Assembly: GCA_903945375.1 (NCBI GenBank)
Contig: CAJAVP010000132.1
Location: forward strand, 1 to 50,804
Direction of reading: 5' to 3'
DNA length: 50,804 bases
From: an uncultured Methylococcaceae bacterium
GTDB lineage: Bacteria; Pseudomonadota; Gammaproteobacteria; Methylococcales; Methylomonadaceae
The translations under genes were made by a program, and so were the position numbers. Under the pieces are notes generated by a model. It saw only the letters and a program-made list of their open reading frames with translations. It ran no database searches and was not told the origin of the DNA. Positions 27,296 through 50,499 of this stretch are shown here, in pieces (within the stretch, counting starts at the first letter, position 1; every line of letters starts with the position of its first letter).

Positions 27296-30200
27296 TTAGA
27301 ATCCTGTCTGGGGTTTGTTAGTCTGCAGCAATTTTTCTAAAAATAAGTGAATCGGTAGCGGTTTACCGAATAAATAACCTTGAAAGTGAAGACAACCATT
27401 GTCAATTAAAAAATGCCGTTGTTGCTCTGTTTCAACCCCTTCGGCAATCACATCAAGGTTTAAACTAATCGTCATAGCAATAATCGTTCGGACAATCGCT
27501 TGATCATTCGCGTCCGTGGCAAGATCACGCGTAAACGATTGGTCAATTTTAAGCTGATCTAAGGGTAAACGTTTGAGATATTGTAAGGATGAATAACCCG
27601 TACCAAAATCATCCAGAGAAAACCGAATACCCATTTCTCGTAAAGCGTTCATGGTATAAATAGTTTCTTCGATGTTTTCCAATAAGGTACTTTCAGTCAA
27701 TTCCAATTTGAGTCGATGTGGATTTATAGCGTGATTATGAATAGACAATTGGACTTGCTGTACGAAATCGATTTGAAAAAATTGTTTAGGACTCACATTG
27801 ACCGATAGTACCAAGTTTTGTGTACTGGATGCTTTTTCCCATAACTTAAGTTGAGCGCAAGCTGTTTCTAGTACCCAATGTCCAATAGCGACAATCAAGC
27901 CGGTTTCTTCCGCTAGAGGAATAAATTCTGCTGGCGAAATAGCGCCTCGCTCCGGGTGTTGCCAACGAATCAAGGCTTCTGCACCGATGATCTGATTGTC
28001 ACTTTGCACTTGAATTTGATAAAAAAGCTCAAATTGCTGGCGATAAATGGCCTTACGTAATTCTTCTTCAAGAGCAACCCGTTCATTAATGGCATGTTGC
28101 ATATGCGGATCAAAGAAACACAAGGCATTACGCCCTAAATTTTTGGCTTGATACATCGCAATATCCGCGCATTTTAAGAGCTCTTCCGCAGGTTGCTCTT
28201 GACCGGTAAACAAAGTAGCGCCGATGCTGGGTGTGCTGAGATAATTCAGTGAACCTAACTGAAAAGGTAAGTTCATTAATTCTAAGATTTTATTGCCAAC
28301 TGCTTTTGCAGATTTTGCAGCATTTAAGTTATCTAGGCTTAAATCTTCCAGCATCACAACAAACTCATCTCCGCCTAAACGTGCAACCGTGTCTCCTTCA
28401 CGAATACAGCCTAGTAAGCGTTCTGCCACTTTTTTCAATAGGAGATCACCGCGATCATGACCATAGGTATCATTCAGGATTTTGAAATTATCCAGATCAA
28501 TAAACAATAATGCCCCTTTAAAACCGCTACGGTGACTCGATGCCAAGGCTAACTTTAAACGATCATACAGTAAACGCCGGTTGGGTAATTCCGTTAGGGG
28601 ATCATAAAAGGCCAAGCGCTCAATTTCTCTGTCAGAGGCCTTTCGTTGGGTGATATCAATGAGCGTACTGACATAGTTAGTCACCACACCCTGCGGATTT
28701 TTAACCGAGCTAATCGTCACAAAATGTGGACAAATCTGCCCTAGTTTACAGCGATTCCAGATTTCGCCTTCCCATTTGCCCGTGCTGTTGATGCTCTTCC
28801 ACATCGCATTAAAAAAGGCTTGATCATGACCACCGGATTTTAATAGATTGGGATTCTTGCCAACCGCATCAGCGGCGTTATAACCCGTAATATCGGTAAA
28901 TGCCTTATTGATGCGTAAAATAATATTGTTAGCATCCGTCACCATCATACCTTGCTGTGATTCAAACACGCTTGCGGCGATACACAATTGTTGTTCATGT
29001 TGTTTCCGCTCGGTGATATCCCGAGACACGGCCAGAATAACCGTTTGACCATCTGCTTCGATCATCGGCACGGCATGGGTGTCAATCCAACGGCGTGTTC
29101 CTTTAAAGCCGACCATTTCAAATTCCAATTGCACACTGTTCCCCGCCAATACTTGCTCAAACATTTGTTGATGGGCTTCACGGTATTCAGAAGCTATGGC
29201 ATTTAAAGCGGGCATACCGAGGACTTGAGAGATACTGTCCGCTTCAATCATCTGCAAACCGGCTGGATTCATTTCTAAGACATGACCGTTGGCGTCCAAA
29301 ATCTTGATACATTCTGGCTCGGTCTCAATGATGGTACGCAGGCGTGACTCAATTTGTTTGCGCTCAGTAATGTCGCGGGTCGTCGCAACAATGTCGATAA
29401 GTTGTCCGTGATTATCGCGGGTACTGCGTAACACGGATTCCACCCAAACCAAGCTACCATCTTTGCGTTGCAAGCGATAGCTCACGCTGCTGGCATCGGG
29501 TTGTTCAATAGCCCGTGCATGGGCTATTTTTACTTGTGCTTGATCCTCTGAATAAATGAACTCATAACAAGAGCGACCGAGCATTTCTTCGGGTGTGTAA
29601 ATTAATAGGTCTTGGCTAGCTGCTGACACAAATAAGCAATGACCTTCAAGGTCATGACGAGAAATGACATCACTTATATGCGTGGTCAGAAAATGTAACT
29701 GCGCTTCGGTTTTACGTATGGCCGTTACATCATAAAACCACGCTAAAACGGCCACGTCATTTTCATAAGCAATCTGTAAATACGTCGCCATCGTCCAGAC
29801 TGTTCCACCGCCTTGGACAAGCAGCTCGATCAAACGATCGGTTACCGTCTGGCCTTGATTTAGTTGCTCAAGAATTCGATCATAGTCTTGCGGGCGAACG
29901 TAATACATCCCAGGATCGGAGCCAATTAATTGATCTGCATCGATGTTGATTAATTGGTTATAGCGATTATTTGTAAAACTTATTTTTCGACCGGCAGAAA
30001 TGGCAATACGAACTGAAATAGGACTCTGTCTAAGCAGAGAAAACATGAGCTCTTGGTTTTTTCGTAATTCTTTTTCAATTTTTTGGCGTCTCTCAGTATT
30101 CTGTTTTAACTGTAAGGCATTCACGGAAAGCTTTTCAAAAATGACCAAAATAATATCGATCAGTACTTGTGTTAAATGCCCCATTTGCTCACTAGCCGTT

Positions 30201-30682
30201 TGTTTGGCATCGTCTAACGTCATGCCGGACTGGAGAGCAAGCACTGACAGCGCAAGATATCTATCGCTGTCTATGATGTGAGAAAACAACCAGTGTGCTA
30301 AAAAAGCCAGGGTATCTTTGGTGATTTGTTCTTCTGAATGGTTATTCTGCGCCGCTTTAAGCTTATCTAAGGTTTCTAAAAAAAATAGATGACTGCCTTT
30401 GTGCTGTTGTACTATCTCGTCATCGCTAAGATAGTGCTGCCAAATCGCCTCTTCGCTTTGAAAATGATAGTTGGCGTAATGGCTCAGTTCTTCAAATAAT
30501 TCCGGTAAGATAGCGGATTCTGATTGCAACGCAATGTGTTTGGCGAGCCGGTTTAACAGCCGGACTAAACATTGATGTTGGCTATCAATAGTGGCTAAGC
30601 CAGTATTAAAATGATCATTCCACGGAAATATATCAATTGAATTCATTGGTGTTTGTCCAGGCTCTCTCTTTTTATCTGCCAA
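27296..30682 (-). CDS. Hemerythrin-PAS-GGDEF-EAL signalling protein
   Basis: An 1128-residue cytoplasmic cyclic-di-GMP signalling protein with no clear membrane helix. The N-terminal domain (about 14-150) is a bacteriohemerythrin. All seven diiron ligands can be placed: H36, H73, E77, H94, H98, H135 and D140, with the spacing of bacterial O2-binding hemerythrins. About four PAS/PAC modules follow (about 205-680), separated by repeated DITERKQ-type linkers. The GGDEF domain is intact (RLGGDEFVVML, about 767-777). The EAL domain begins near 900 (GAEALIRWQHPERG) and retains DDFGTGYSSLQYLKRL. Both enzyme motifs look active, so net direction cannot be told. Oxygen or redox sensing is inferred from the diiron domain. 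A second possible start is Met13. Confidence 0.95.
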   Translation of the reverse strand: MADKKREPGQTPMNSIDIFPWNDHFNTGLATIDSQHQCLVRLLNRLAKHIALQSESAILPELFEELSHYANYHFQSEEAIWQHYLSDDEIVQQHKGSHLFFLETLDKLKAAQNNHSEEQITKDTLAFLAHWLFSHIIDSDRYLALSVLALQSGMTLDDAKQTASEQMGHLTQVLIDIILVIFEKLSVNALQLKQNTERRQKIEKELRKNQELMFSLLRQSPISVRIAISAGRKISFTNNRYNQLINIDADQLIGSDPGMYYVRPQDYDRILEQLNQGQTVTDRLIELLVQGGGTVWTMATYLQIAYENDVAVLAWFYDVTAIRKTEAQLHFLTTHISDVISRHDLEGHCLFVSAASQDLLIYTPEEMLGRSCYEFIYSEDQAQVKIAHARAIEQPDASSVSYRLQRKDGSLVWVESVLRSTRDNHGQLIDIVATTRDITERKQIESRLRTIIETEPECIKILDANGHVLEMNPAGLQMIEADSISQVLGMPALNAIASEYREAHQQMFEQVLAGNSVQLEFEMVGFKGTRRWIDTHAVPMIEADGQTVILAVSRDITERKQHEQQLCIAASVFESQQGMMVTDANNIILRINKAFTDITGYNAADAVGKNPNLLKSGGHDQAFFNAMWKSINSTGKWEGEIWNRCKLGQICPHFVTISSVKNPQGVVTNYVSTLIDITQRKASDREIERLAFYDPLTELPNRRLLYDRLKLALASSHRSGFKGALLFIDLDNFKILNDTYGHDRGDLLLKKVAERLLGCIREGDTVARLGGDEFVVMLEDLSLDNLNAAKSAKAVGNKILELMNLPFQLGSLNYLSTPSIGATLFTGQEQPAEELLKCADIAMYQAKNLGRNALCFFDPHMQHAINERVALEEELRKAIYRQQFELFYQIQVQSDNQIIGAEALIRWQHPERGAISPAEFIPLAEETGLIVAIGHWVLETACAQLKLWEKASSTQNLVLSVNVSPKQFFQIDFVQQVQLSIHNHAINPHRLKLELTESTLLENIEETIYTMNALREMGIRFSLDDFGTGYSSLQYLKRLPLDQLKIDQSFTRDLATDANDQAIVRTIIAMTISLNLDVIAEGVETEQQRHFLIDNGCLHFQGYLFGKPLPIHLFLEKLLQTNKPQTGF

Positions 30683-43383: not shown

Positions 43384-43800
43384 TTATGCCTCGTTATTTT
43401 CAAAAGCCAACAATTCTTTCAACAATTGATTGGCGAGTTCTACGCTATCTTTATAGCCTTCGCAATCAATTAAAAAATTGTAACGGTATTCTTCCGCACA
43501 AACGGTAATGACTTGTAATGCCATGCGGTATTTAGTTTTGTCAGTTTTAAAAGCAGTACTTTCAATTAATTCTTCTAATAGTTTGCTTAATTTATGGCTA
43601 TGCGAATACGCGCCATACTTGCTCTTAGTTTCTAATAAAAATTTAAATAGCATTTCCAACATCTGTTGGTAATGAAAACAGTGCATAGCGCAATCTTTAA
43701 ACGCGATTTTCTCCAGTAAGTCTATGGCAACTGCGTGTTGCCAAGCTTTACCGCCTAAGCTTTCTACTTCAGTAAATTTTTTAAATAGTTCTGCGTACAT
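43384..43800 (-). CDS. HEPN-domain protein
   Basis: A 138-residue all-helical protein. The pattern ALDLLEKIAFKDCAMHCFHY-like followed by QQMLEMLFKFLLETKSKYG and HKLSKLLEELIEST matches HEPN domains (the Q-Q-x-x-E core and the H-x-L loop). The final helix has CAEEYRYNFLID but no Rx4-6H motif, so ribonuclease activity as in HEPN toxins is doubtful. HEPN genes often pair with a minimal nucleotidyltransferase antitoxin; none is adjacent. It converges with the FliL-like gene. Confidence 0.75.
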   Translation of the reverse strand: MYAELFKKFTEVESLGGKAWQHAVAIDLLEKIAFKDCAMHCFHYQQMLEMLFKFLLETKSKYGAYSHSHKLSKLLEELIESTAFKTDKTKYRMALQVITVCAEEYRYNFLIDCEGYKDSVELANQLLKELLAFENNEA

Positions 43801-44964: not shown

Positions 44965-47900
44965 ATGGCTACGATAATTTATGCAGACCTAACACCAGAC
45001 GACATAGCTGCTCTCTCGACAGCGGTTATAGGCGCCATCACTAACACAGATCTTGCCGCTTTATCTATTGAGCAAGTACAAGCACTAACGGGAGATCAAA
45101 TAGCCGCCTTAAAAACCAAAGTCGGTGTTATGACAACCGATCAAATCGCTGGCTTAACCACTGACCAAATCGTGGCATTGACCAATACGCAAACTAAGGC
45201 GTTGACCATAGGCCAAATACAAGCACTCAGTGTTGATCAAATTGTCGCGCTTGAAACAGCTGATTTAATCGCACTGTCTACCTTACAAATGAAGGCATTA
45301 AGCAGTGACCAAGTTTCAGCGCTAACAACCAATCAATTTGGTGCGCTGACCTCTTTACAAATAGCCTCTTTATCACCCGATACCTTTGGCTTATTGAGCA
45401 GTGATCAAATTGCGGCAATGAACACGCTGCAAATAAAAGCGTTGAGTTCCGGACAAATGGCGGCCTTAACGCCAACGCAAATAGCAGGATTTGAACTTAA
45501 CGATATTTCGGCCTTGACCAGCTTACAAGTTGCCTCATTAACAACCGATGCCGTGTCCGGATTTAAAGCCGATCAAATTAGTGCATTGACAAAAACGAAT
45601 ATCTTAGGATTAAGTACACCTCAAATTTCCGTATTAACGAATACTCAGGTTGGTGCTATCGAAACGAGTGATCTTAGTGCAATGAGTACAGCGCAAATAA
45701 AAGGGCTGTCAGCGGCTCAAATAAAGGCACTCAGCTTAGATCAGATTAATGCACTCACTGTCACCCAAGTTTTAGCGATTGATCCGGCTGACATCTCTAC
45801 GATGACTACCACACAAATTGTTGAAATGAATTCTGCGCAAATCAGAGCCTTAAGTACCGCCCAAGTTCAAGCCTTAAGCACTGCCCAAGTGTTTGTTTTA
45901 GAGGCCGAAGACATCAACGCATTAAGTAGCGCTCAAGTCGCCGCGTTAGGTGCAGATGTCTCAAAAATGTCAACTGACCAAATCGCCGCATTAACCAAAA
46001 CCAATATTATTGGCTTAACGAATACCCAAGTTGCCGGATTAGTCGCGTCGACTCAAATTGCTGCAATTGAAACTAATGATTTAGTATCAATGACCACTGC
46101 ACAGATTAAAGCCTTAACCACTTCACAAGTTTCTAACTTGTCTGAAGCGCAAGTGGGTATCTTCAGTTCCGCTCAAGTCTTGGCATTGGACACGGGTGAT
46201 GTTGCTGTATTAAATGCTGCACAATTGCAAGCCATAACCACAGCCGGCATTAAAGGCTTAAGTACCGCCCAAATTAAAGCGTTAACTGTAACGCAAGTCC
46301 CCTCCTTACCCGGTGATAGCGTTGCGGCTTTAAACAGTCTGCAAGTTAGAGCATTTGATACCATTGATGTAGCCGCCTTAAGTGCAAGCCAAATAGCCGC
46401 TTTCACAACCGCCAATATCAAAGGCTTAAGCAATGCCCAGATACAAGCGTTTACAGCAAGTCAAATGGCCGTCATTGAACCACTCGATTTTGCGATGCTA
46501 AGTAGCGCACAAATCAAATCTATCGATACCGGTGATATATCAAGCCTAACCACCGATCAAATTACCGCATTAAGCAAAACGAATATTATAGGGTTGACTG
46601 GTTCTCAAGTCTTGATATTGAGCTCAGCACAATTACAAAGCATTGAAACGGCTGACTTAAAAGCCATGACAGCAATACAAATCAAAGCCTTAAGTAGCAC
46701 TCAAGTGCCCGACTTAACGGCCGATCAAATTGATGTTTTAAGCTCAGCACAAATTGCTTCATTAGATACCGTTGACATTTCGGTATTGGCCAATGCACAA
46801 ATCGCCGCCTTAACCACAGCGAACATCAAAGGCTTAAGTGCGGCTCAAATGACCGCGATGAGTTCAGGGCAAATTTCGCAAATACAAACCACTGATGTCG
46901 CCGCTCTAAGTTCCGCACAACTGCGTGCTATCGGTTCGGATGTAACGGTATTAAGTGCCGACCAAATCGCCGCATTGACAGCAACCAACATCAGAGGTCT
47001 CAGTACTGCGCAAATTGCCTCATTAAGTGTTAATCAAATTCAATCTTTGACAGCAGATAACATCACAGGCTTAACCACCGCACAAGTTAAAGCATTAACC
47101 TCCGGTCAAGTTGCCGCCATTGAAACATCAGATCTTAATGCTATGAGTGCAACCCAAATCAGCGCACTAGATCCAGAAGATGTTAACGCACTCAGTTCAA
47201 CCCAGTTAGCCGCATTGGGTAATCCCATAAAGGTTAATGTTACGGGTTATACCGCCACCCAGCTCAACACCTTAGCGGCTAACTCGGCAAATGTCAGCGC
47301 CATCATCGGTACCTTAAACCTGACTTCCGCTCAAAGTGCCAGCCAAATATCCAGTTTATTGAATTTATACAGCGGTAGCTTGGCAACAGCTGTCGCCACA
47401 AATATGAACACGGATGCGATAGATGCCTTAGCAAGTAATGCCAGCAAACTCGCCGCAAGTGGCGTTTCAGGTGCAGTCGCCATTTCCCAAACGCAATACG
47501 ACACACTGACCTCATCAAAACTAAGAAACACCGGAACAGATACCCTAGCCATCAGTGCCGTAGCCGATGGTGCCTCGGTCACCGTCAATAACTTTGCCGG
47601 TGCGACTTTTATCGGTACCTTATCAGGAACAACCGGCAAATTTAATGTGACCGTCGGAGCGGGCGATCACTCCATTACAGCCGCAGCAGGAAATGATGTC
47701 ATAACCGCAGGTTCAGGAACGGATAGCATCATTGCCGGTTCAGGCAGCGATTACATCAATTTTGTAGCCGGCTCTTTAACCTTATCCGATACCGTCGATG
47801 GCGGTACTGGCACGGATACACTGGCGTTATCCAGCAATATTGCTGTTGCTGCAACAGACTTCACTAACGTCAGCAACATTGAAGCGATTACGGTCGGCAA

Positions 47901-50499
47901 CACCACAACTAATATTGCATTAACCACACAGAATGCTCTTGTTGCGGCCTCAGCCACGATGACGCTCAATGCCAGCTCTTTAACCTCTGGCGTGTTAACC
48001 TTCAATGGTGGCGCAGAAGCTGATGGCGCGTTTGTCATTACTGGCGGCGGTGCGGCTGATTCTATTTATGGTAGTGCCAATGCAGATACTTTAACGGGTG
48101 GCGCAGGTGCCGACATCCTCAATGGCGGTACCGGTAGCGATTCAATCGTAGGTGGCTCAGGTGCTGATAGCATTACGGCTGGAACAGGCAGCGTATACAT
48201 TAGTGCAGGTACGGAAAATGACTCGATAAACTTCATCGCAGGTGCATTGACATCAGCGGATACCGTCGATGGTGGCACAGGTTCAGATACCGTTGCGTTG
48301 ACAGCAAATGTTGCAATCAACACAGGCGATTTCGATAGTGTCAGTAACATCGAAACGATTACCATCGCCAACACATCAGCCGCAGCCGCTATTACCACAA
48401 AAGATGCATTAGTTTCTTCAGGGGCAACTTTAACGTTAGATGCGAGTACAACACTAACGACCGGCACGTTTAATTTTAATGGTATCGCAGAAACAGATGG
48501 CGTATTCGTGATTACTGGCGGTGGCAGCTCCGGCGTGACGATTGCGGGTGGTGCAGGTGCCGACACCTTAACAGCAAGTCTAACAGGCTCTGTTGCAAAT
48601 AACATCAGTGGTGGTGCAGGCAATGATACCATCACCGGCGGGGCAGGTACTGCAACTGGCGGCGATAGCATTACGGGCGGTGCAGGTGATGACAAGTTCA
48701 TCTTTGTTGCGGGTACTTTAACCAGTGGAGACGTTGCTGTTGATGGGGGGGTCGGATATGATACGTTGGCATTAACAGGTTTGACTGCCATTGCCTCTAC
48801 AGATTTGAATACTGTTGCTAATATTGAAAAAATAACGATCGTTACGACAACGAGTGCTGTCGCGATTACAACCGTGGATGCGTTAGTTTCCGCAGGCTCT
48901 ACCTTAACATTGGATGCGAGAGCAACACTAACGACCGGCGCGTTTAATTTTAATGGTGCCGCAGAAGCGAATGGTGCATTTATCATTACCGGTGGCGGCA
49001 ATTCAGGTGTCACTATTACCGGTGGTAGCGGTGCAGATCTCTTGGAGGCAAGCACATCGGGATCTGTCATCAACATCATTACCGGTGGTACTGGTGATGA
49101 CACCATTACCGGCGGAGCAGGATCAGCGGATAATCTTGCGGGTGGCAACGACAATGATCTGATTAATTTAGTGTCAACTAACTTGGGCTCTGCAGATGTT
49201 ATTAATGGCGGTAGCGGTATCGATACACTTAATTTTACCGGCGGTGGTGCGATTGGCGGTGTATCAACCGACTTTACAAACGTTACCGCTTTAGAAGCCA
49301 TTACGTTTACAAATACGAGCAATAGCGTAGCAATTATTGCAGCATCAGGTCTAGTCGCGGCCGGAGCAACATTAACCTTAAATGCCAGTACCTTAACCAG
49401 TGGCACACTGAAATTTGATGGTTCTGCAAACGTAGGTACCGGCGCGTTTGTTATTACCGGTAGTGCCGGCGCGGGCGTTTCAACGATTATTGGTGGCTCA
49501 GGTGCCGATACCCTAACGGGTGGTACCGGTGCAGCCAATACCATTGACGGCGGGGCAGGTGCTGATGTGATCGTAGCCAGTACAGGTGCGGTTGGTGATT
49601 TAATTGTCGGTGGTGCAGCTAATGATACTATCACCTTTGTATCTGGGCTCTTGACGTCAGCAGATACGGTATTTGGTGGCACGATTGGCGGAGTTTATAG
49701 CGCAGTCGTGTTGGCTTCCGGCGGTGATTCAGGAACAGATATATTGGCACTAACAGGTAATAGTGCCATTAATGCCACGGACTTTAACAATGTTACTGAT
49801 ATTGATGTCATTACCGTTCAAAACACAACATCCAGTATTGCGATTACCAGCGCAGATACCTTGGTATCGGCTGGAACAACCTTGACATTAAATGCCAGTA
49901 GCTTAACGACCGGCACATTGACCTTTAATGGTGCGGCGGAACTTGATGGCTCGTTCAGCATTACTGGTGGCGCAGCGGCAGATACGATCACTGGTGGCGG
50001 CATAGCCGATACCCTGCTGGGCGGTGGGGGAGCCGATAGTCTTGTCGGTGGAGCAGGCGCAGATGCGCTAACCGGTGGCACAGGCTTAGACACCCTGACT
50101 GGCGCTGAGGGGGTTGACACCTTTACGCTCGCCTCTGCCTCAACAGATGCCGATACCATTACCGACTTCGCTAGCAGTACGGATATTATCGACACCAATG
50201 CGTACACCACAACCTTAAGTAAAACTTATGAAGAGGTTGCGACCGTTGCGGGTGATATCACCACCGATGCGAATGTCATTGTGTTTGGTGGCACGACCAC
50301 ACTCGCCGCTGCCGCCGCTGCAATTGCCTCAGACGCAACGGTCACCGGCAATACGGGTTTGATTATCTTCTCCAACGGCACGGATACCTTTGTTTATGGT
50401 ACAGATAATCTGGCGGCAGATGGCGTTGAAACCTTGTTGGTTACCCTAACCGGCATCAGTAACGCGCTATCACTGGGCACAGCAGACTTCACTGTTTAG
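44965..50499 (+). CDS. Giant RTX protein with N-terminal octapeptide array
   Basis: An 1844-residue protein with no signal peptide, expected to be exported by a type I secretion system and to fold outside the cell on binding calcium. Residues about 10-751 are 93 consecutive octapeptides of the form [ST]xx[QD][IV]xx[LM] (for example STAQIKAL, ETSDLSAM, TKTNIIGL). Residues about 752-895 are a linker. Five modules of about 156 residues follow, each with a beta-rich segment (TVDGGTG...NIEAIT...LTLNAS...FVITGGG) and a block of GGxGxDxxx nonapeptides; the final RTX block ends near 1720. The last 120 residues hold the uncleaved secretion signal, ending GTADFTV. A surface-layer or adhesin role is plausible but not shown. 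No T1SS genes are in the window. It starts at an ATG after AGAAGG. Confidence 0.93.
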   Translation: MATIIYADLTPDDIAALSTAVIGAITNTDLAALSIEQVQALTGDQIAALKTKVGVMTTDQIAGLTTDQIVALTNTQTKALTIGQIQALSVDQIVALETADLIALSTLQMKALSSDQVSALTTNQFGALTSLQIASLSPDTFGLLSSDQIAAMNTLQIKALSSGQMAALTPTQIAGFELNDISALTSLQVASLTTDAVSGFKADQISALTKTNILGLSTPQISVLTNTQVGAIETSDLSAMSTAQIKGLSAAQIKALSLDQINALTVTQVLAIDPADISTMTTTQIVEMNSAQIRALSTAQVQALSTAQVFVLEAEDINALSSAQVAALGADVSKMSTDQIAALTKTNIIGLTNTQVAGLVASTQIAAIETNDLVSMTTAQIKALTTSQVSNLSEAQVGIFSSAQVLALDTGDVAVLNAAQLQAITTAGIKGLSTAQIKALTVTQVPSLPGDSVAALNSLQVRAFDTIDVAALSASQIAAFTTANIKGLSNAQIQAFTASQMAVIEPLDFAMLSSAQIKSIDTGDISSLTTDQITALSKTNIIGLTGSQVLILSSAQLQSIETADLKAMTAIQIKALSSTQVPDLTADQIDVLSSAQIASLDTVDISVLANAQIAALTTANIKGLSAAQMTAMSSGQISQIQTTDVAALSSAQLRAIGSDVTVLSADQIAALTATNIRGLSTAQIASLSVNQIQSLTADNITGLTTAQVKALTSGQVAAIETSDLNAMSATQISALDPEDVNALSSTQLAALGNPIKVNVTGYTATQLNTLAANSANVSAIIGTLNLTSAQSASQISSLLNLYSGSLATAVATNMNTDAIDALASNASKLAASGVSGAVAISQTQYDTLTSSKLRNTGTDTLAISAVADGASVTVNNFAGATFIGTLSGTTGKFNVTVGAGDHSITAAAGNDVITAGSGTDSIIAGSGSDYINFVAGSLTLSDTVDGGTGTDTLALSSNIAVAATDFTNVSNIEAITVGNTTTNIALTTQNALVAASATMTLNASSLTSGVLTFNGGAEADGAFVITGGGAADSIYGSANADTLTGGAGADILNGGTGSDSIVGGSGADSITAGTGSVYISAGTENDSINFIAGALTSADTVDGGTGSDTVALTANVAINTGDFDSVSNIETITIANTSAAAAITTKDALVSSGATLTLDASTTLTTGTFNFNGIAETDGVFVITGGGSSGVTIAGGAGADTLTASLTGSVANNISGGAGNDTITGGAGTATGGDSITGGAGDDKFIFVAGTLTSGDVAVDGGVGYDTLALTGLTAIASTDLNTVANIEKITIVTTTSAVAITTVDALVSAGSTLTLDARATLTTGAFNFNGAAEANGAFIITGGGNSGVTITGGSGADLLEASTSGSVINIITGGTGDDTITGGAGSADNLAGGNDNDLINLVSTNLGSADVINGGSGIDTLNFTGGGAIGGVSTDFTNVTALEAITFTNTSNSVAIIAASGLVAAGATLTLNASTLTSGTLKFDGSANVGTGAFVITGSAGAGVSTIIGGSGADTLTGGTGAANTIDGGAGADVIVASTGAVGDLIVGGAANDTITFVSGLLTSADTVFGGTIGGVYSAVVLASGGDSGTDILALTGNSAINATDFNNVTDIDVITVQNTTSSIAITSADTLVSAGTTLTLNASSLTTGTLTFNGAAELDGSFSITGGAAADTITGGGIADTLLGGGGADSLVGGAGADALTGGTGLDTLTGAEGVDTFTLASASTDADTITDFASSTDIIDTNAYTTTLSKTYEEVATVAGDITTDANVIVFGGTTTLAAAAAAIASDATVTGNTGLIIFSNGTDTFVYGTDNLAADGVETLLVTLTGISNALSLGTADFTV

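Follow-up and report, generated by a model that had tools for sequence, protein, structure and literature searches.

The octapeptide repeat described here has its closest described counterpart in the Pfam family ALTTAQ (PF20080), which shares its octad, and a deposited chain of 120 residues, HeliScrew4 (PDB 9zem), is built from this octad as well. RTX proteins, which are exported by type I secretion, have C-terminal calcium-binding nonapeptide repeats in common with the gene studied here and differ from it at the N-terminal part, where this gene has an octad array; to our knowledge, no described RTX protein has such an array. In the HMW1/HMW1C system, the gene for a GT41-type enzyme lies beside the gene for a surface protein, and the protein is N-glucosylated at N-x-S/T sites. 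According to the paper on FlmG of Caulobacter, this protein is a cytoplasmic flagellin O-glycosyltransferase that has an N-terminal substrate-binding part and acts before export, and the term 'GT41' does not occur in the main text (PMC7591256). Here, these systems are compared with a gene in a window (the whole stretch of DNA that was analysed) of 50,804 nucleotides from an uncultured Methylococcaceae bacterium. The gene (44965..50499, + strand) encodes 1844 amino acids, in which the ORF, Pfam and NCBIfam analyses place an octad array first, followed by a linker and an RTX-type C-terminal part.

The best explanation, which we hold to be rather probable, is that the product would form a screw-type, type-I-secreted, calcium-dependent and probably O-glycosylated surface rod. 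In the order of events that we infer, the array protein would be made first and a GT41 enzyme, mostly one with TPR repeats, would sugar-tag the octads in the cytoplasm, the acceptors probably being exposed Ser/Thr residues at octad positions 2-3; the RTX end would then lead type I export, and outside the cell calcium would fold the RTX end and the array would stand as a straight, charge-striped, glycosylated rod. The array-GT41 loci resemble HMW1/HMW1C adhesin glycosylation in that the GT41 gene lies beside the gene for a surface protein, whereas the latter is N-linked at N-x-S/T, unlike the O-glycosylation proposed for the window array; N-glycosylation of the HMW1C kind was rejected for this array, which has just 2 N-x-S/T sites. 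The proposed GT41 step also resembles FlmG in the modification of a protein before export, although the FlmG system differs from the array in its flagellin substrate and in flagellar export (PMC7591256). More generally, we tentatively suggest, as something a little short of probable, that ALTTAQ arrays may be dedicated GT41 substrates and that octad screw, glycosyltransferase and type I secretion may constitute a widespread undescribed module producing a sugar-coated, charge-striped rod, in which a pitch of 3.4 octads would sort acidic and basic residues onto different faces and repeat the acceptor Ser/Thr along the screw. The GT41 link, if true, would provide a concrete substrate class for bacterial GT41 enzymes and a testable candidate acceptor position.

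The array gene and the family of its repeat

Dynamic-programming segmentation of the ORF 44965-50499 cuts residues 10-751 (44992..47217, + strand) into 93 tandem units, which bears out the number given in an earlier note on this DNA, as well as the three 7-residue units and the single 9-residue unit reported there. The 7-mers are units 6 (45112..45132), 41 (45949..45969) and 82 (46933..46953), the 9-mer is unit 45 (46042..46068), all on the + strand, and units of odd length are found at matching places in six relatives. The other 89 units are octads, with Ser/Thr at position 1 in 67, Gln, Asp and Asn at position 4 in 60, 17 and 7, respectively, Ile/Val at position 5 in 71 and Leu at position 8 in 65; Trp, Cys, His and Tyr are absent from the array. 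The earlier note knew of no described fold with this repeat, and the idea that the repeat is undescribed has to be given up. By its profile match the octad repeat is one already known, Pfam PF20080 (ALTTAQ; 452.3 bits against a curated cut-off of 26.4, E 4.3e-139, 24 stretches), and the octad spacing of this family is kept in 89 of the 93 units. Moreover, HeliScrew4 (9zem) is a sequence relative of the array (E 8.8e-16, or 6.7e-27 with a profile), and the displayed matches align ungapped; Pro is frequent at position 2 in the displayed alignment, whereas most GT41-associated arrays have Ser/Thr there. The 38-position model of PF20080 spans fewer than five octads, so that the features reported below, namely a 17-octad order, a 3.4-octad rhythm, fixed faces and a GT41 partner, cannot be seen with it. 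Among the matches listed in literature searches, with subscription journals and preprints mostly outside their scope, no work on the ALTTAQ repeat, on HeliScrew or on an octad array together with GT41 was recognised. Leucine-rich repeats, represented by PF23952 (27.8 bits against a curated cut-off of 27.9) and solved structures, gave only weak sequence matches and were rejected for the score below the cut-off; the predicted structure of the window array is strand-free as well. A match to CAAP1 (PF15335, 41.2 bits against a cut-off of 25, with no single stretch passing) was discounted as composition.

The linker, residues 752-900 (47218..47664, + strand), is conserved in the six relatives (76-90 identities over 149-151 columns), and the C-terminal part (47665..50496, + strand) carries RTX calcium-binding nonapeptide repeats (PF00353, 100.3 bits against a cut-off of 23, nine stretches, the best at residues 1026-1061). 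The contig ends 305 bp downstream of the array gene, and a profile search of the contigs found the ALTTAQ matches of the window's genome confined to this gene. Elsewhere in the window, 27296-30682 (- strand) encodes one protein of 1128 amino acids combining hemerythrin, PAS domains, GGDEF and EAL, and an ORF for 138 amino acids at 43384-43800 (- strand), between the genes for FliL and a ComP-type pilin, has no Pfam family at E 0.001.

GT41 and secretion genes around the arrays

A gene for GT41 (PF13844), which we take to be OGT-type, lies within 2 kb of the array at L018, L019, L020, L023, L024, L027, L113, L114 and in genome G378. The gene is that close in six of the 16 loci taken without regard to GT41 (the window and L016-L030), while L113, L114 and G378 (by L112/L118) were fetched because a GT41 match lay near, at 0.1-1.9 kb. 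All scanned GT41 proteins except that of L114 have TPR repeats. In nine of the ten loci without a nearby GT41 gene, the array either runs off its contig or lies no more than 2 kb from the contig end. A whole-genome search that took in six genomes' loci among these nine (the window, L016, L017, L021/L022, L025 and L026), with the contig-edge loci L028 and L030 outside it, placed GT41 on contigs other than that of the array, except in G003, where it found none; at L029 no GT41 was found among the six neighbours scanned, three of them with Pfam and the other three with NCBIfam alone. In the window's genome, GT41 does not lie beside the array gene, the GT41 genes being on contigs C75 and C40 and the array on another contig. 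The protein on C75 has 586 amino acids (PF13844 E 4.8e-82), and the GT41 copy of this genome is 83% identical to the array-adjacent one of G010.

The alternative that survives best is that the array is an unglycosylated adhesin or spacer rod, which would hold binding domains off the cell, with GT41 found nearby through variable surface-gene regions. We regard this as doubtful. It fits the arrays without any GT41 in their genomes, that of G003 (19 units) and the long one of G398, and it fits the flanking genes for UDP-galactopyranose mutase at two loci and GalE at one of these, as in polysaccharide regions; a GT61-type gene flanks an array at one locus. Against it stands the position of the GT41 gene, which is separated from the array by only 61-272 bp on the same strand in L019, L020, L023, L024 and L114 and by about 0.1 kb in G378. 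Furthermore, GT41 is associated with arrays in two sets of genomes, in counts that are uncorrected for relatedness. Among relatives, it occurs in 10 of 11 ALTTAQ-bearing genomes versus 13 of 50 others (Fisher p 1e-4). In a draw across the phylum, 13 of the 14 genomes with at least 20 ALTTAQ matches have GT41 versus 113 of 373 others (p 3e-6), where 10 of the 14 long-array genomes are from one family and are thus not independent, and with any ALTTAQ match the count is 14 of 23 versus the same 113 of 373 (p 0.005); the frequency of GT41 in genomes without arrays is itself a point in favour of the unglycosylated rod. Within the genus, an orthologous GT41 is present in 5/5 genomes with the 93-unit array versus 1/15 without it, G012 having a putative fragment only. 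Among 14 control genomes, ALTTAQ was found in one (Caulobacter vibrioides), which is one of the two with GT41.

The composition of the octads also bears on the choice between the unglycosylated and the glycosylated rod, since Ser/Thr at positions 2-3 varies with GT41, while position 1 is rich in Ser/Thr with and without it. Position 1, the helix cap, is Ser/Thr in 0.62-1.00 of the units in 32 arrays, with medians of 0.79 with and 0.89 without GT41. At position 2, the median is 0.72 in 26 arrays with GT41 versus 0.20 in six without, of which five are short or weakly scored and three are from one genus; Pro is frequent there in four of these six. The window array has 0.56. In G357, position 2 is low in Ser/Thr (0.37 and 0.20) and position 3 is rich in them instead (0.79 and 0.55). 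A counter-example is the array of G003, with a value of 1.00 at position 2 despite the lack of GT41, which was left out of the median for arrays without GT41. Overall, the share of Ser/Thr is no higher inside the window array (0.233) than outside it in the protein (0.263). In the sequences compared, a high share of Ser/Thr at octad position 2 or 3 goes with the presence of GT41, though not in every case.

As for export in the glycosylated-rod model, type I secretion genes are located within 3 kb of the array in L020, L023, L025 and L112; in L023 and L025, the score of the ABC protein falls short of the curated HlyB cut-off. The window's genome has PrtD, HlyD and TolC over their cut-offs on contig C42, and on C31 an HlyD over the cut-off with an ABC protein under it.

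Several loci deserve separate mention. In G378 (L118, L112), the array frame has 5446 amino acids with at least 604 octads, and after the GT41 gene the genes for TolC, HlyD and PrtD follow on the opposite strand, which is the most complete array-GT41-secretion locus seen. At L019 (1546-3322 and 3453-8391), the GT41 gene and the end of the array gene are each in two overlapping frames, perhaps because of assembly errors. Three long ORFs (1018, 335 and 499 amino acids; L029:18548-24405) downstream of a 320-unit array match neither a Pfam nor an NCBIfam family at E 0.001. The family f62 (genomes G094, G101, G105, G125, G133, G141, G145, G153, G157, G165 and G169; loci L032-L034, L036-L038, L040, L041, L043, L045, L046 and L055-L058) has many giant ALTTAQ proteins, the first-look candidates reaching 779 and the GT41 matches 51 in a single genome, and several of its arrays combine a two-octad alternation with Ser/Thr near 0.9 at positions 2 and 3.

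Order of the octads and the charged faces

Within the window array, identity is highest at lag 17 (0.422), in agreement with the 17-octad period proposed earlier, followed by lags 24 (0.403), 41 (0.396), 34 (0.378), 7 (0.369) and 10 (0.354); the remaining lags from 1 to 46 give 0.250-0.349. A five-octad cassette had been described as starting at octads 8, 25, 42, 59 and 76. These starts are correct, but the full cassette is not present in every copy, as the copy at 8 is without the N-octad (octad 9 is TNTQTKAL) and the copy at 76 ends with QTTDVAAL instead of the E-octad. Of two additional copies placed at 66 and 83, the first is complete, and in the second the fifth place is taken by an N-octad (87) instead of an acidic octad.

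Octad similarity in the window peaks at lags 7, 10, 17, 24 and 34 and weakly at 27, which are rounded multiples of 3.40, so that 17 octads can be taken as five turns. Residues 10-751 would accordingly wind into a screw, of either hand, in which each octad is one helix and a turn takes about 3.40 octads (27 residues), 7 and 10 octads being about two and three turns. The turn number is taken from sequence lags and not from model coordinates; and as the array is sampled once per octad, f is equivalent to 1-f and 106 degrees has a mirror and aliases, 3.4 octads per turn being the simplest reading. The one-peak lag fit for the window gives r 0.84 versus a 95% limit of 0.56 for shuffled octad order. 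Lags 3, 14 and 20 also come near multiples of 3.4, missing them by 0.12 turn, yet they show no increase in the window (0.284, 0.301 and 0.316); lag 27 is strong in several unrelated arrays, and L030 additionally has 14, 20 and 31. Among the 35 arrays of at least 60 units that were taken into the lag fits, the best frequency is 0.2920-0.2965 per octad (3.37-3.43 octads per turn) in 22, a number that includes the window with its orthologues (seven arrays) and two pairs sharing one contig each, and 21 of these 22 exceed their own shuffled limit. They include arrays from Xanthobacter (r 0.97), Aquabacterium, Oxalobacteraceae and Hyphomicrobiales. The exceptions are eight arrays with a dominant two-octad period and five with other periods. 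In the 604-unit stretch of G378, 112 of the 117 intervals between acidic octads measure 5, 7, 2 or 10, values near whole or half turns, and the basic octads peak at 0.2945 per octad. If this reading is right, sequence alone could give the helical repeat of a solenoid with a precision of about 1%, and 3.4 octads per turn is a sharp prediction for the deposited structure 9zem.

The same order could be the record of block duplication only, an ancestral unit of 408 bp having been copied and then drifted, with no geometry involved. In its favour, no other single lag in the window is as strong as lag 17, and several other arrays have 17-octad blocks, for example L029, where most 17th units are 6-mers. 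We consider it quite unlikely, since identical residues at lag 17 share the same codon no more often than expected (0.439 versus 0.453), similarity is also high at lags 7, 10 and 24, the basic octads stay on a face of their own, and L030 and G378 have no constant block yet show the same 3.4-octad rhythm and intervals. In addition, unit number and odd units are kept in relatives. The same segmentation gives 93, 95, 94, 93, 93 and 93 units in L016-L019, L021 and L022, respectively, where L017 has gained two trailing units, one of odd length, and L018 a leading unit, which shifts its odd units by one. These six share 58-66% of the array residues with the window in register, and their synonymous differences are saturated (pS 0.76-0.80), which excludes a recent block duplication and not an ancient one. 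Tandem Repeats Finder detects no DNA-level repeat in the array, which fits old, diverged units. Growth by duplication of a roughly 408-bp unit, as the earlier note had it, is thus rejected as a recent process; an ancient block duplication may have happened as well, and would leave the choice of lengths unexplained. On these lags and codons, five turns of a 3.4-octad screw account better for the 17-octad period than a recent 408-bp duplication does. Two minor observations concern array plans: G034 has two array genes (L021 and L022) on separate contigs, both on the 93-unit plan, and L050 (G254) is a possible array with a nine-unit order and 5- and 9-residue units, which may be a false match.

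On a 3.4-octad screw, acidic octads (Glu/Asp at positions 1 and 4) and basic octads (Lys/Arg at position 6) would recur on fixed faces. In the window, eight octads with Glu at 1 and Asp at 4 have a phase of 0.47-0.59, six D..D octads together with the short units 41 and 82 have a phase of 0-0.12, and seven N-octads are at 0.59-0.71; acidic octads 1 and 3 are off the stripes. The acidic octads are taken as two stripes half a turn apart, one of the E-type and the other of the D-type. A 2.4-octad rhythm of these octads was set aside, being taken as the aliased second harmonic of 3.4. Lys/Arg at position 6 falls within phase 0.59-0.88 in 17 of 18 octads of the window, and in 23 of the 30 arrays tested, again of at least 60 units, it keeps phase with 5/17 (first or second harmonic). 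Even in arrays that alternate by two octads, position-6 Lys/Arg keeps the 3.4 rhythm in six of seven testable cases (p<0.05, the permutation p-values of array rhythm being too small because they ignore the shared descent of the units). In other families in which both faces are clear, the basic face comes roughly 0.1-0.45 turn after the acidic one.

Predicted fold of the array

The earlier note regarded each octad as a short helix and the whole as a solenoid, for which it called for structure prediction. AlphaFold2 agrees with both, predicting single-octad helices: for octads 7-40 (45133..45948, + strand), it places one helix of 4-6 residues in 34/34 octads, with pLDDT 96.6 and pTM 0.87. The input for this stretch was an alignment registered by hand, in which three relatives supplied 17 in-register rows and the window one further row. 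In single-sequence models of residues 300-900, the best of five scored 70.5 and the other four 40-52; in the best, the array has mostly pLDDT 70-90 and the linker mostly below 50. A disordered array, for which AlphaFold would have produced helices only because of the repeat input and the hand-registered alignment, would fit the moderate single-sequence confidence with one good model in five and the absence of Trp, Cys, His and Tyr; it is very improbable in view of the conserved hydrophobic spacing, the Ser/Thr at the cap position, the charges phase-locked across hundreds of units and the PDB entry of a sequence relative (9zem). Foldseek found no close solved fold for the octad model, and nothing better for the single-sequence model; the top match of the former is the mesothelin superhelix (PDB 7ued), at a TM-score of only 0.33 and an rmsd of 10.2, and 9zem is absent among the best 50 matches. 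Predicted helix length per octad has a period of about 3.46 octads (6.74 versus a shuffled limit of 6.18), a weak signal as the sequence drives both. In the best single-sequence model, the odd units do not interrupt the helical course of the chain, and helices are fused into longer ones close to unit 45 (model residues 54-62) and unit 82 (351-363).
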